DNA of 64,000 nucleotides, taken from Saliphagus infecundisoli (GTDB lineage Archaea; Halobacteriota; Halobacteria; Halobacteriales; Natrialbaceae). The translations under genes and the position numbers were made by a program. The stretch covers positions 1 to 64,000 of the forward strand of contig NZ_JAIWHV010000018.1 in assembly GCF_020177375.1 (NCBI RefSeq), in the 5' to 3' direction. The notes beneath the pieces are model-generated. The model was not told the origin of the DNA. It saw only the letters and a program-made list of their open reading frames with translations, and did no database searches. Of the stretch, positions 7,331-19,353 are shown piece after piece (the first letter of the stretch is position 1; each line of letters opens with the position of its first letter).

Positions 7331-7506
7331 TAATGACTAAGATAATTTTTGAAAGTCAAGGAATCTCTCACACCACTTCTTTGCGAAACTGATTCGCTGC
7401 GTTATTTTCTCGAACGTCTCTTGAACGAGCTCTTTGAACTCGTCTTCGTTCTCAACGACGATCGGTGCCATCGTCCACTTGAGAAAGTCCCAGACTTTCT
7501 CAATTG

Positions 7507-8446
7507 GGCTCTGTTGAATCACTAGACGGCGGCGGGATCGATCGCTAATTCAAAGGAGCTGAAGCGGGAGACTTCGGTTGCCTATGACCCAAATCTCCCG
7601 CTTCATCAGGGAGGTTGTGCCGGTTGCTCAAAACGTTACTGGCGATGGAGACGAATCCGCCGCCCCGGAAGGTGGCAGCGGATTCGCCGACTACGCACTT
7701 GTTTCTCTCCACTGTCTGCGGATTTACCTCGATGCGTCCTACCGGATGACGATCGACTTGTTGAAAGAGATGCCACAAATAACCGGGGAGATCGGCCGCG
7801 CTGAGGCCGATCTCCCCTCACCATCCACGTTGTGTAAAGCGTTCGACCGGATCAGTATGAGCGTCTGTCGAGTGTTGCTGCGCCAGTCGGCGCAGCTCCA
7901 CGACCCGTCCGAACACGGCGCGATCGACGCAACGTTCTATGAACGGTCAGCTGCGAGCCGCCACTACTGCCAGCGAATCAGCTACCGCGTTCAGAAGCTG
8001 AAGGTCACGAAACTCGTCGATACTGAGTCTCAAGCCGTCCTCGACGTTCACTGTTCGACGACCCGGGAAGGAAGCGATGCAGATCTCTGTGAGCAGATCG
8101 CCCGCCGGAACGCGGGCGATCTGCGGTCTCTGGCCGCCGATAAGGGCTACGACAAGCAGGCGCTCCGCACTGCACTCCGCGAACTCGGCATCAGACCGCT
8201 GATCAAGCACCGCATCTTCGCCCCATACGACCACGCACACAACGCCAGAATCGACGAACAACGCTACAATCAGCGCTCTATGACCGAGACGGTGAATTCA
8301 GCTGTCAAGCGCTCGCTCGGCTTCGCCGTGCGAGCGCGTTCCTGGTTCCGTGAGTTCCGCGAGATTGCGCTGATGTGTGTCGTCTATAACATCAAGCGAG
8401 CTGTGAAGCAGTGAATTCCACCGCCCTATGGCGATTCAACAGAGCC
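7507..8446 (+). mobile_element. IS5-family (ISH1 group) insertion sequence
   Basis: The 940-bp element has a 14-bp perfect inverted repeat, GGCTCTGTTGAATC at 7507 and its complement ending at 8446. It is flanked by the 8-bp duplication CTCAATTG (7499-7506 and 8447-8454), the duplication size known for the ISH1 group. It has inserted into the IS630 transposase D1. The transposase is intact, so this is probably the youngest layer here. Confidence 0.88.
7584..8414 (+). CDS. IS5-family (ISH1-type) transposase
   Basis: This is a 276-residue DDE transposase. GAIDATFYE supplies the first Asp, AADKGYDK the second, and RSMTETVNSAVKR the Glu. The helical N-terminus with YALVSLHCLRIYL is typical of haloarchaeal IS5 enzymes. 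The ATG at 7584 is preferred over the TTG at 7578. No frameshift or stop is present and both element ends are intact, so mobility is plausible. Confidence 0.88.
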   Translation: MTQISRFIREVVPVAQNVTGDGDESAAPEGGSGFADYALVSLHCLRIYLDASYRMTIDLLKEMPQITGEIGRAEADLPSPSTLCKAFDRISMSVCRVLLRQSAQLHDPSEHGAIDATFYERSAASRHYCQRISYRVQKLKVTKLVDTESQAVLDVHCSTTREGSDADLCEQIARRNAGDLRSLAADKGYDKQALRTALRELGIRPLIKHRIFAPYDHAHNARIDEQRYNQRSMTETVNSAVKRSLGFAVRARSWFREFREIALMCVVYNIKRAVKQ

Positions 8447-9423
8447 CTCAATTGGGTTGAGATGCGGCGATCCTGACGGGATGAAGATCAGGTTGATTCC
8501 CAGCTGATGCGCGCGCTTGCGCGTGTACTGACAGATATGTGCTCCATGTTTGTCCAAGACGAGCAGAATCCGCTTGCCGGGATTCTGCTCGCGCACCTCC
8601 TCCAAGACGTCACAGATCCGCTCCTTCTTTTCGTCTTCCTTGAACGTCACGTGACTGGCACCGTTCAGTGCGTAGAATCCAACCGCAGAGTCGTGCGTTT
8701 TCACTAACGGCCGTTCAATGTGCGGGTCGTCGACGTACCAGACACGGCGCGAATTATCGTACGGCTGTGGTTTCGACGCGTCGAAGAATCCAAGGACAGT
8801 GCCGCCATCAGTACAGACATCGTCGTCAACGACCCAGCCGTCTCCGTCTTCTCCCTCGCGTTTGTTGTGTGGCTGCTCGTCCTCGTCGAGCGCGTCATCG
8901 ACGCGCTCTTCGAGAATCTTATCTGGGTTCTCCGGCCGACTTGGTCGCTTTGGCCGTGGTTTCGCGTATGACAGACCTAGCTCTCGAAGGAACGTCCCGA
9001 GGTAATTCGGACTGTACTCGACGCCGAACTCTTCGGTGAGAAGATGCTGAATCTCCTGTGATTTCCAGGGCTGGCCCTCACGGAGCATCTCGACCAGCTC
9101 TTCTTGTTCGTCCTTGTCGAGTTTCGGGGGCCGGCCGCCCCCGAAACTCGGCATCAGTTCTTCGAGCCCACCTTCATTCCAGGCTTCTGCCCAGCGATCA
9201 CCGGTGGCCGCCGACCTGCCTTCCCGGTCGGCGGCCTCCGGAATCGAATCACCCTGATAGAGGTTTTTCAGGAACCCGAGACGCCGAAGTCGGTGATCGT
9301 CTTCAGCCTCACGGAGCAATTCGTCGATCTCCTCTTCAGACAGGTGGTGCTTGATCTCCTTGCGACGTGAGCGTTCCATGAACGACAGTCGGCATTAACT
9401 CACAAAAGTTTTCGTACTCATTA

Positions 9424-13539: not shown

Positions 13540-14936
13540 ACCTCGGTTGCGTAGCGGTAGCGAGCGTCTCTTGAAGGATCGGTCGTTGCTGGCGAATCTT
13601 CTGTGCGTCTTCGATCAGTCGGTCCAACAGCGGCGGTGGCGAATAGCCGAGGTGTTCGCCGAGTTCGTGGAGGATGAGCTGGGCGTGCGACCGAGAGTGG
13701 TCTGCGTCACTTCTGAATATTGGCTGCTAAGCAACTCTACGGCGTACCATGCGGCCCGGTGAATAGCCACTGCTCGAGTATTCAAAACAAAAGCTGATCA
13801 CTCAAGGTCGCCGCCCAGCGCTCGCGCGGGAACACGATCTCATCGTCAGCCTCCTCGGTGACCAGATCCAGCAAATCACGGCTCACCAGCAGTGACAGCA
13901 ACGCTGCATACAGCAGAATCTCAACAACCGCCGGGTGTCGAACTCGTCGAGTTCGTACTGCGTCTTCAGCTCACGGAACAGCAACTCCACCTCCTACCGA
14001 CACCGGTATAGCGTTGCCAGATCGGCCGGGAGGAACTCCTCTCTGGGCAGATTCGTGATGTAGAGATGGTAGTCGTTGGCGTCCTCGTTGCGGACGCCGA
14101 CGACGCGGAACCGCTTCGTATCCAGCGAGCGCGTTCCCTCATACGGCCCTCGCTTGAATTCCGCTTCGACTTCCACGTCGATGTACTCGCGGTAGAGATC
14201 GTCCACGACATCGTGGATCTGCTCGCCTTCCAGAGGGATGGCGCGGCCGCGCCATCCCCGTAATTCCGCCGTTATCACCGGATTTGCGCTCTTCTTCAAC
14301 CGACTCACGAAGTAGCCGTCGTTCTCATCGATCAACGCGAACCGGCGGTACTTGAAGTACGCCAGATCGATGAGAACGAGCCGTCCCTGCAGCCACGAGC
14401 CTGTCTTGAACAGCGTGCTGTCGTGCGTTTTTTTCGTCGGTCACGTCGAGCCGTTCGATCGTCTGATCGGTGGCATTGTGGAGCAGGTGGAGCGTCGCTC
14501 CAGCCTGCTCCTCTTTCCGAGCCTGGTATTCATCGGAGAGAAATTCGTGCAACCGCAGGATGGTTCCATCCGCAATCATCACGTCCCTGAATCGGTCGAG
14601 ATCAGCGTCGACAGCATCGGGAACAGCGACCTCGTCGAGACCGCGCTCGACGAGGTCGCGGAGGTACTCCGCGAGCGAGGGCGTCAACCGCTGATTGAAA
14701 CCACCAGGCGAGATCGGTTCGTCGGCTGTGGAGTTGTAGCTGCGTCGGAAGCCAGCGAGTGTTCGGCTCTCGCCTGCGGCGAAGCCGAACACGAGCGCCC
14801 AGACGAACGCTGGAATCTGGAGCTTGCGATCGCGTTCGACCACGCCGAGTTCCTCGGCGTGCTCTTCGAGGAACTTGGAGGGAAACAGTGTAGTGAGCCG
14901 ACGCATAAGCCGGGATGAGGTGGCTTTGATGTGCAC
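13540..14936 (-). pseudogene. ISH8-type transposase with frameshift, stop and MITE insertion
   Basis: The minus-strand gene begins near 14936 (SSRLMRRLTTLFPSKFLEE) and runs through VMIADGTILRLHEFLSDE. A frameshift in a T-run near 14430 follows, then ENDGYFVSRLKKSANPVI and YITNLPREEFLPADLATLY in another frame. An in-frame TAG near 13994 falls where relatives have a Trp before EVELLFRELK. The MITE at 13695-13803 interrupts the last quarter. At least three lesions make it inactive. Confidence 0.85.
13695..13803. mobile_element. 109-bp miniature element (MITE copy 3)
   Basis: The ends are GAGTGGTCTGCGTCAC leading to TGAATATT and, inward from the right, GAGTGATCAGCTTTTG leading to TGAATACT. They are of the same type as the 155-bp elements, but the interior differs. 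The flanks join into the coding sequence expected for ISH8 transposases with no duplicated base. They form GCGACC (13687-13692), a 4-nt loop and GGTCGC (13806-13811), with the insertion at the middle of the loop. Confidence 0.8.
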
Positions 14937-16687: not shown

Positions 16688-17807
16688 ATAGTCGGTAGTT
16701 CCCATCGAATCAGAACGTAGTCAGGACTGATAGGGTTAGATTCTCAGAGAGCGTCTAGATGGGTGCGTGTGAGATTCCTATACCATCCAGACACTGTTCT
16801 TACGGCCTCTGAGCTTGAAACGTTAGCGCTCGGTCTGCTCGCAGAGATACCGATCCCCGGAGTCGAAGACTGCCGCTTCGACTCCGGGATCATCCGAGAG
16901 ACACTCCTCCAAGCCGCTGTCGACCAGAAATCAATCAAAGCTGTCACCGATACTACTCGGGGAACGTACTCCGACGACTACACGCTGACACAGCTTCACA
17001 CGGTTCCGCCTGCTGAACTGGAAGCACTCGTCAATGACCTCTTCGTCGAGCAGACGGCGATGATCCTCGGCCCCGGCCCGAGGATCATCTGCCTCGACTT
17101 CGTCGATATCCATTACCACGGCTGTCCACACGCTGAACCTGGCGAACTCTGTCACACGAAGCCTCGCGATGGCACCTCCCAGTGCCATCGCTACCTCGCT
17201 GGATTCATCCTCAGTCGATCACATCGGGTTAGAGTAAGTGTGTGCTTGGAGAGTGCGTGCAACAAACCCAAGCAGACAACGAGGTAGAGGAAGAGCACCT
17301 GCTTAATTTTGTCGTCAACAGTCTCGGAGACGAGCTCCCGATTGATCTCGGTGAGAACGTAGAGGTCTCCGCTGATGAGTTATACGAGGTCCTCGCCGGC
17401 GCCAGCGCCGGCGGGACCTCGATCAATCACGTCTGCGAGACGACCGACGAGTCGCCCCACGCCAACACCGTCCGTGACCATCTCACCGATCAGTTCGACC
17501 TGGACGCTGTTGAGGCGGTCGGGAACACGCTCCTTCAACGAGATGCCCTCGAGACGCTTCCCGATCGACCGGTGGAGGTCGTCGCCGACCTCCACCTCGA
17601 TCCCTACTACGGTGACGAGGACGAGACGGAGGCGCTGTACTTCTCGCAGGCGAAACGAGGAACCACGGCGTTTCACGCCTACGTCACGCTCTACGCGCGG
17701 GTACGCAACAAGCGGTATACGCTGGCGGTCCGCCAGCTGGTCGCTGGCGAGACCACAAGCGAAGTCCTCGCGGAGTTTCTGACTCTGCTCGACGGCCTTG
17801 ACGCGTA

Positions 17808-18948
17808 ATGACTAAGATAATTTTTGAAAGTCAAGGAACTTCTCACACCACTTCTTTGCGAAGCTGATTCGTTGCGTTATTTTCTCGAACGTCTCTTGAA
17901 CGAGCTCTTTGAACTCGTCTTCGTTCTCAACGACGATCGGTGCCATTGTCCACTTGAGAAAGTCCCAGACTTTCTCGATAGGATTGAGATGCGGCGATCC
18001 TGACGGGATGAAAATCAGGTCGATTCCCAGTTGATGCGCGCGCTTGCGCGTATACTTACAGATATGTGCTCCGTGCTTGTCCAAGACCAGCAGAATCCGC
18101 TTGCCGGGATTCTGCTCGCGCACCTCCTCCAAGACGCCACAGATCCGCTCCTTCTTTTCGTCTTCCGTGAACGTCACGTGACTCTCACCGTTCAGTGCGT
18201 AGAATCCAACCGCAGAGTCGTGCGTTTTCACTAATGGCCGTTCAATGTGCGGGTCGTCGACGTACCAGACACGGCGTGAATTATCGTACGGCTGTGGTTT
18301 CGACGCGTCGAAGAATCCAAGGACAGTGCCGCCATCAGTACAGACATCGTCGTCAACGACCCAGCCGTCTCCGTCTTCTCCCTCGCGTTTGTTGTGTGGC
18401 TGCTCGTCCTCGTCGAGCGCGTCATCGACGCGCTCTTCGAGAATCTCATCTGGGTTCTCCGGCCGACTTGGTCGCTTTGGCCGTGGTTTCGCGTATGACA
18501 GACCGAGCTCCCGAAGGAACGTCCCGAGATAATTCGGACTGTACTCGACGCCGAACTCTTCGGTGAGAAGATGCTGAATCTCCTGCGATTTCCAGGGCTG
18601 GCCGTCACGGAGCATCTCCACCAGGTCTTCTTGTTCGTCTTCGTCGAGTTTCGGGGGCCGGCCGCCCCCGAAACTCGGCATCAGTTCTTCGAGGCCGCCT
18701 TCGTTCCAGGCTTCTGCCCAGCGATCACCCGTCGCCGCCGACCTGCCTTCACGGTCGGCGGCTTCCGGAATCGAATCACCCTGATAGAGGTTTTTCAGGA
18801 ACCCGAGACGCCGCAGTCTGTGATCGTCTTCAGCCTCACGCAGCAATTCGTCGATCTCCTCTTCAGACAGGTGGTGCTTGATCTCCTTGCGACGTGAGCG
18901 TTCCATGAACGACAGTCGGAATTAACTCACAAAAGTTTTCGTATTCAT
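17808..18948 (-). mobile_element. Intact IS630-family element D2 at the apex of an inverted repeat
   Basis: The 1141-bp element has ends ATGACTAAGATAATTTTT and, inward from the other side, ATGAATACGAAAACTTTT, each preceded outside by TA. The host sequence forms a perfect 12-bp inverted repeat, GACGGCCTTGAC (17791-17802) and GTCAAGGCCGTC (18954-18965), with the element exactly between GCG and CAG of the loop. It is the intact counterpart of D1 at 7333-9421. Confidence 0.88.
17812..18906 (-). CDS. IS630-family transposase (intact)
   Basis: This 364-residue DDE transposase is full length for the family. The N-terminal helix-turn-helix half includes EEIDELLREAEDDHRLRR and QPWKSQEIQHLLTEEFGVEY. 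The catalytic half has GFFDASKPQPYD (first Asp), LLVLDKHGAHI (second Asp) and SPHLNPIEKVWDFLK (Glu). The stop lies 4 bp from the element end, as in D1. It could mobilise D1 and other copies with the same ends; the MITEs have different ends and need the 6578-type enzyme. Confidence 0.9.
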   Translation of the reverse strand: MERSRRKEIKHHLSEEEIDELLREAEDDHRLRRLGFLKNLYQGDSIPEAADREGRSAATGDRWAEAWNEGGLEELMPSFGGGRPPKLDEDEQEDLVEMLRDGQPWKSQEIQHLLTEEFGVEYSPNYLGTFLRELGLSYAKPRPKRPSRPENPDEILEERVDDALDEDEQPHNKREGEDGDGWVVDDDVCTDGGTVLGFFDASKPQPYDNSRRVWYVDDPHIERPLVKTHDSAVGFYALNGESHVTFTEDEKKERICGVLEEVREQNPGKRILLVLDKHGAHICKYTRKRAHQLGIDLIFIPSGSPHLNPIEKVWDFLKWTMAPIVVENEDEFKELVQETFEKITQRISFAKKWCEKFLDFQKLS

Positions 18949-19198
18949 TACAGGTCAAGGCCGTCTACCTCGACCGCGGCTTCTACAACAGCGGCTGCCT
19001 CGAATTACTGTACGCACACAACTACGCCTTCATCATACCGATCGTCAAATGGGGTGAGACGATTCAAGACGAACTCAGCAGCGGCTGGAGCCGGGTGATC
19101 GAGCACGAACTCGCCGGGCGGGTGACGTTCCTTGTGTTCATCGACTGCGTCTACCAGCGAGGTCGCTACGATGAACACGGGGTGGCGCGTCACGGCTA

Positions 19199-19353
19199 GA
19201 GTGGTCACTGCAACACTTGAATATTCAGAAGGAACGTGGCGATCTAGTTCTCAGCGACGCTCGGAGGCTTGTTTAATCGGGAAATCCACTCGTGGTGAGA
19301 AGCGCTTTGAGCTGGAGCCTGTGATGCGTATTCATCCATTGCGCTAATCACTC
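19199..19353. mobile_element. 155-bp miniature element (MITE copy 2)
   Basis: This is the reverse complement of the copy at 1853-2007 with a single mismatch in 155 bp, so the two are recently related. It interrupts the copy-B transposase after CGGCTA. The right flank resumes ACGCCG, so at most one A is duplicated. Copy C gives the uninterrupted site at about 5725-5755, an inverted repeat GGCGCGTCACGGC, TAC, GCCG and so on, and the MITE sits in the TAC loop. Confidence 0.9.

Follow-up and report, generated by a model that had tools for sequence, protein, structure and literature searches.

The window, a stretch of 64,000 nucleotides from Saliphagus infecundisoli (contig NZ_JAIWHV010000018.1, positions 1 to 64,000), carries an IS630-type insertion element that interrupts an ISH3-type transposase gene and lies exactly at the centre of an inverted repeat, in the arrangement GACGGCCTTGAC-GCG^CAG-GTCAAGGCCGTC (Table 1). 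The encoded protein scores 302 bits against NF033545 (cut-off 100) and 58 bits against PF13358 (cut-off 28.6), which assigns it to the IS630/DDE_3 type, and it contains the motifs FFDAS, LVLDKHGAH, and SPHLNPIEKVW, which may supply the DDE catalytic triad. With its terminal inverted repeats and a length close to the usual 1.1 kb, the element is also typical of the IS630 family in build, but it does not share the family's TA-duplicating insertion, as the empty sites described below show. The interrupted gene had been frameshifted before the IS630-type insertion took place, and its pieces match the ISH3 model under the cut-off because they are only fragments.

Table 1. Coordinates of the element, its target, and related features in the window (TIR, terminal inverted repeat)
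Feature	Position	Strand	Details
Second copy of the window element	7331..9423	-	Split by another insertion at ~7508-8446; left flank is half a hairpin, GAGCAGAATCCG-GTC^
109-bp non-autonomous relative	13695..13803		GAGTGGTC...GATCACTC; widespread haloarchaeal family; hairpin with one bulge
Interrupted, previously frameshifted ISH3-type transposase gene with target hairpin	16763..17808, resumes after 18950	+	Two ORFs in different frames, both matching NF033541 (ISH3)
Target hairpin, left arm	17791..17802		GACGGCCTTGAC; perfect 12-bp inverted repeat
Target loop, left half	17803..17805		GCG
IS630-like element, including its own terminal TA dinucleotides	17806..18950	-	1145 bp; from TAATGACTAAG at 17806 to ...TTCATTA at 18950; TIR pair TAATGACTAAG / TAATGAATACG
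Transposase, IS630 family, DDE_3 domain	17812..18906	-	364 aa; Pfam PF13358 and HTH models; NCBIfam NF033545
Target loop, right half	18951..18953		CAG
Target hairpin, right arm	18954..18965		GTCAAGGCCGTC; perfect 12-bp inverted repeat
Candidate 155-bp non-autonomous relative	19199..19353		GAGTGGTC...AATCACTC; weak hairpin (stem score 6 over 12 positions)

A preliminary description of this locus had placed an intact IS630-family element at the centre of a perfect 12-bp inverted repeat, and the arms, loop halves, and element ends were all found as it gave them. Its argument from the reading frame against a TA duplication also holds; when the flanks are joined without TA the host open reading frame continues as ...LDGLDA-QVKAVYLDRGFY, and a single TA shifts the frame. 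The original loop that it deduced, GCGCAG without TA, is matched by an uninterrupted 6-nt loop in copies from other genomes and in one from the same genome (C4, L353, CTGCGC, again without TA). Other empty relatives of the target have 6-nt loops that also lack TA, namely GCGCAG (L333), ACCGAG (L332), and CTGCGC (L339, L347, and L348). The loop is known in both orientations, that of the window being the inverse of that in L353. The reading of the window element given in that description is supported, with one result in favour of a TA target. This is the closest sister of the target in the same genome (C28, ~29960; L331/L352), which matches at 97% across the left flank and has CTG-TA-CGC at its apex. 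Because this TA disrupts the frame and occupies the apex, it is best read, by inference, as the excision footprint of a departed element. The loop of this sister is opposite in orientation to that of the window copy, and loop inversion is possible.

Further copies of the element lie elsewhere in the genome. L003 is inserted in GACACAGCGACGC^GCGTCGCTGTGTC, and L004 and L006 show the halves GAGCGAGGACTC-GCT^ and ^TGG-GAGTCCTCGCTC. The second copy in the window has only half a hairpin on its left, and the other half, ^GGC-CGGATTCTGCTC, is found at L005 on C4. When these two flanks are joined without TA, the peptide EQNPVGRILL is restored in a different IS630-type gene. The pairing of the left flank of one copy with the right flank of another on a different contig suggests recombination between element copies.

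Perfect hairpins with 12-bp arms are numerous in the window (at 1208, 1411, 5229, 6819, 7053, 7785, 8093, 16856, and 17059), several of them in or near transposase coding sequence and some common to related ISH3-type gene copies. Transposase genes may be hairpin-rich for some reason, and this richness may turn them into targets. Because hairpins are so frequent in the transposase genes of the window, the single insertion is by itself weak evidence.

Insertion junctions and empty sites

Homologs of the transposase were searched for at the family level (matches in 28 of 125 genomes) and at the order level (matches in 75 of 392 genomes). Examination of 122 loci yielded 93 distinct junctions for which both ends could be located; the other 29 were dropped because the ends were not both found, the flank was too short, or the junction was identical to another locus. 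The insertion point coincided with the apex of an inverted repeat in 69 of the 93 (flank stem score of at least 6), and 59 of them scored at least 8. Mismatched flank pairs reached these scores in only 250 and 90 of 8548 cases, respectively, and random positions within the same loci in 334 and 162 of 20000, so that chance in hairpin-rich genes can be ruled out. The two loop halves were equal in 55 of the 69 apex junctions, differed by one base in 13, and by two bases in 1. For the 24 junctions in which no stem was detected by script, some have mis-called ends, some resemble recombined copies, and others are unexplained. Since the script mis-sets some element ends (those of L037 and L041, for example, which by eye look like apex insertions), the count of 69 is probably an underestimate. 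All insertions were inferred from static genomes without any transposition being observed, and target families are shared by several sites, so that not all are independent.

The 125 family genomes were screened for empty counterparts, with the flanks joined without TA as queries. Up to 3 candidates per genome were scored for these composite queries, and the empty sites are therefore a sample. Removal of L189, a self-match with a stem of 2, from the 34 rows left 33 insertion sites, and in every case the hairpin was already there in the best-matching empty site (85-100% identity). The two extra TA bases expected from a TA duplication were seen in 0 of these 33 best empty sites. The strongest cases come from the same genome as the insertion, with all 100 joined bases identical in L079/L150 and L067/L120 and 99% identity in L003/L090 and L063/L123. 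Two matters had been left for empty sites to settle in the preliminary description, whether they contain TA and whether they are always stem-loops. On the first, its expectation of no TA was fulfilled, the sister L331/L352 being the exception; on the second, empty sites are nearly always stem-loops but not strictly every one.

Comparison with the empty site revealed that the effect of insertion on the loop depends on its length. Insertion left 15 of 20 even loops unchanged but only 1 of 13 odd loops (Fisher p 2.3e-4), the other 12 odd loops being altered in length, usually by loss or duplication of the central base. Exceptions to a simple parity rule are found among the even loops, four of which grew by one base and a fifth of which differed by three. 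Because some sites have a target in common (e.g. L079/L080 and L072/L075), the p value overstates the significance.

Element ends and TA-flanked relatives

A distant sub-clade (41-48% identity) has the ends GAGTGGTC...GACCACTC, and 7 of 9 junctions of these GA...TC-ended members lie at a hairpin apex. GA and TC are complementary and do not form a direct repeat, which argues that they belong to the element. Other haloarchaeal IS630 families in the same genomes show the arrangement C-TA-[TAGTGATTAGC...CTA]-TA-G, which makes their inner TA equivalent to the terminal TA of the hairpin-targeting clade. The terminal dinucleotide, TA or in one sub-clade GA, is part of the element, as had been proposed for the window element, and the target is not duplicated.

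As controls, 33 IS630 copies were examined, among them five families from elsewhere in the phylum. Every one of the 33 is flanked by TA at both ends, and a flank stem was seen in 0 of 33. That the outer TAs are duplications is inferred rather than read from empty sites. In a tree of DDE segments, 13 of 14 control rows clustered together and separately from the hairpin-targeting rows; the remaining one (L209) is a wrong-frame translation and was disregarded, and L258 and L261 are partial. In a phylum-wide sample, 57 of 344 genomes contained a homolog at E 1e-25 or better, and where several copies per genome were retrieved from outside the haloarchaeal order (20 copies, five families), these belong to the TA type. 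In the haloarchaeal clade, hairpin targeting therefore appears to be derived. No relative was found in the viral contigs scanned with the transposase.

Transposition of the Tc1/mariner-IS630 group is the textbook TA system. The hairpin-targeting clade belongs with this group (ISY100, Shigella IS630) in transposase family (NF033545, DDE_3), and its terminal inverted repeats start with TAGTG or TAATG, as in haloarchaeal CTAG-type IS630 members, but it differs in having no TA target, no 2-bp duplication, and a target directed by structure. Transposases annotated as ISHam1, ISNpe13, and ISHti6 families fall in this clade and are labelled simply as IS630-like. The ISY100 paper cites the Tenzen papers for insertion at TA accompanied by its duplication and, through a title, for a CTAG preference, and judges bacterial and eukaryotic Tc1/mariner-IS630 members to have one common mechanism.

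Proposed mode of insertion and alternatives

We propose that the transposases of this haloarchaeal IS630-type clade read the structure of the target and not its sequence, and insert the element at the tip of a hairpin or cruciform with its own TA or GA ends and without duplication (probability about 0.8). Observed directly are the pre-existing hairpins and absence of TA in the empty sites, insertion at the apex, an effect of loop parity, and the different behaviour of TA-flanked relatives. We hold the rule of hairpin-tip insertion with high confidence; attack on both tips of a cruciform is inferred and only narrowly favoured. Because the target is independent of sequence yet exact to the tip, the enzyme, or a proxy, appears to read DNA shape. 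The target hairpin would extrude as a cruciform that is recognised by its shape, and the two tips would then be cut at equivalent positions. Even loops would be opened flush and remain unchanged, and an odd loop would give a one-base stagger, the base being either trimmed and so lost or filled in twice.

The alternative that survives best is joining of the element to one hairpin loop on single-stranded DNA, for example on the lagging strand. IS200/IS605 elements join at hairpin loops on single-stranded DNA, which forms hairpins readily, and hairpins within genes are indeed targeted. The parity rule is nevertheless hard to explain by single-strand joining, which gives no reason for the different behaviour of odd loops, and natural if both cruciform tips are cut at the same offset; moreover, the transposase is of the DDE type by HMM, not HUH. 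We regard this alternative as unlikely. Less plausible still is that a host nuclease of the Mre11-Rad50/SbcCD type breaks the hairpin tip and that the broken DNA then captures the transposon. Palindromes are known fragile sites, and break repair could yield blunt or plus/minus 1 junctions, but the hairpins are unused by other IS630 families of the same genomes, and tip-exact joints with intact ends in most copies point to the element's own enzyme.

Ordinary IS630 insertion with TA duplicated, into loops that chanced to contain TA, agrees with the family norm, the TA...TA ends, and the CTG-TA-CGC loop of the nearest sister. It was rejected, and is very improbable, because the best empty sites, including those of the same genome at 99-100% identity, lack the extra TA and because GA...TC-ended members cannot be TA duplications; the broken host frame of a TA version and the TA-free loop of L353 also speak against it. 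The notion that insertion itself made the flanking inverted repeat by inverted flank duplication, or that the repeat is a by-product of hairpin-rich transposase genes, can be set aside despite the frequent hairpins in these genes, since both arms already stand in the empty counterparts, which refutes it for the sites that have one, and random positions in the same loci so rarely score.

Insertion at stem-loops is known for IS110/IS1111 elements, group IIC introns, and integron attC sites, which likewise use secondary structure as a target but with unrelated enzymes and chemistry. The nearest precedent is IS1272 of the IS1182 family, whose 'inverted-repeat-replacing' transposition (PMC5678879) targets stem-loops and deletes the whole stem-loop; the same paper states, with reference to Siguier et al. 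2015, that palindromes are targeted by some IS1182 members. Both systems use stem-loops of varying sequence, without target duplication and with a DDE transposase. The stem-loop target of the IS1272 type is matched in the junction survey, but deletion of the stem-loop is not; the hairpin-targeting elements sit at the tip with both arms kept around them, as in the empty sites, and the transposase families differ. No description of hairpin-tip insertion by IS630 members was found in the open literature (a search that largely left out subscription papers and did not cover ISfinder entries), and the part of a MITE review that was available (PMC10969869) does not mention IS630.

A clade that exchanged TA for DNA shape, without duplication, would mean that target choice can be rewired in this fold. 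The elements could serve as a natural reporter of cruciform or hairpin formation in vivo, and the targeting of hairpins suggests a reason why they accumulate inside other transposons. For annotation, calling the terminal TA a duplication misplaces the element ends. The broadest statement, that a DDE (IS630-type) clade gave up the TA target for both cruciform tips, that its derivatives explain the SMR-A repeats discussed below, and that the elements record cruciform extrusion in living cells, is one to which we give only slightly better than even odds.

Small non-autonomous relatives

Derivatives of about 107-126 bp, and others of 296 bp, were also found in hairpins. Besides the 109-bp relative in the window, the 155-bp candidate lies downstream of the window element in the same host gene region. 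GAGTGRTC-ended elements of ~108 bp occupy hairpins in records of Natrarchaeobius, Natronococcus, and Halovenus and in an uncultured haloarchaeon. The extended GAGTGRTC pattern was found at 16 loci in all, of which 8 are haloarchaeal, with a hairpin in 6 of these 8. A looser pattern gave matches in 49 of 392 genomes, with a stem of at least 6 in only 4 of 28 rechecked loci, indicating mostly chance matches. The 296-bp derivatives have TAATGG ends (L172 and L269).

One genome (G179) was taken as Haloquadratum walsbyi C23 on the basis of a 100% match to a plasmid PL6B protein. A scan of AT-rich Haloquadratum DNA for terminal inverted repeats alone lacked specificity (398 pairs, 6 with stems, against 935 and 11 in a reversed-sequence control), and families were defined by repeats instead. 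One such family in C23 comprises 26 hits of 108 bp with TAGTACTCC ends, and 16 of 25 near-complete copies (one truncated copy left out) lie at a hairpin apex, often in terminal hairpins of what, by their sequence, we take to be IS605-like elements. No such repeat was found on the Haloquadratum plasmid PL47. C23 also carries two elements of the hairpin-targeting clade, one of 1146 bp that is inserted in a hairpin (L460) and one that is frameshifted and has TAGTGCTTC ends (L459).

According to PMC3119063, the SMR-A repeats of H. walsbyi are ~110 bp long, have inverted terminal repeats and no target duplication, and are inserted within palindromes of IS605-type elements and PATEs; no matching transposase had been found, and their mobilisation was termed enigmatic. 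The 108-bp family of C23 meets this description in size, inverted ends, lack of target duplication, and position inside palindromes, but this is a match in properties and does not show identity with any named HqIRS family (HqIRS42, HqIRS43, or HqIRS55). We infer that the ~108-bp derivatives are moved by the same transposases, including the Haloquadratum family that fits SMR-A, which offers a possible mechanism for those repeats. Small relatives of the hairpin-targeting clade may account for mobile repeats of unexplained origin in this square salt-lake archaeon.

A second C23 repeat family of ~116 bp with CTSATAGTGATTAG ends (L414 3507-3622, L415 14496-14610, L416 14805-14919, and L428 19381-19496) had no apparent hairpin context as judged by eye. 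In a bacterial MAG from lake sediment, a 117-bp stretch with GAGTGGTC ends (L321 3038-3154) lies within a 25-bp perfect palindrome, and may be either a long palindrome or a bacterial relative.
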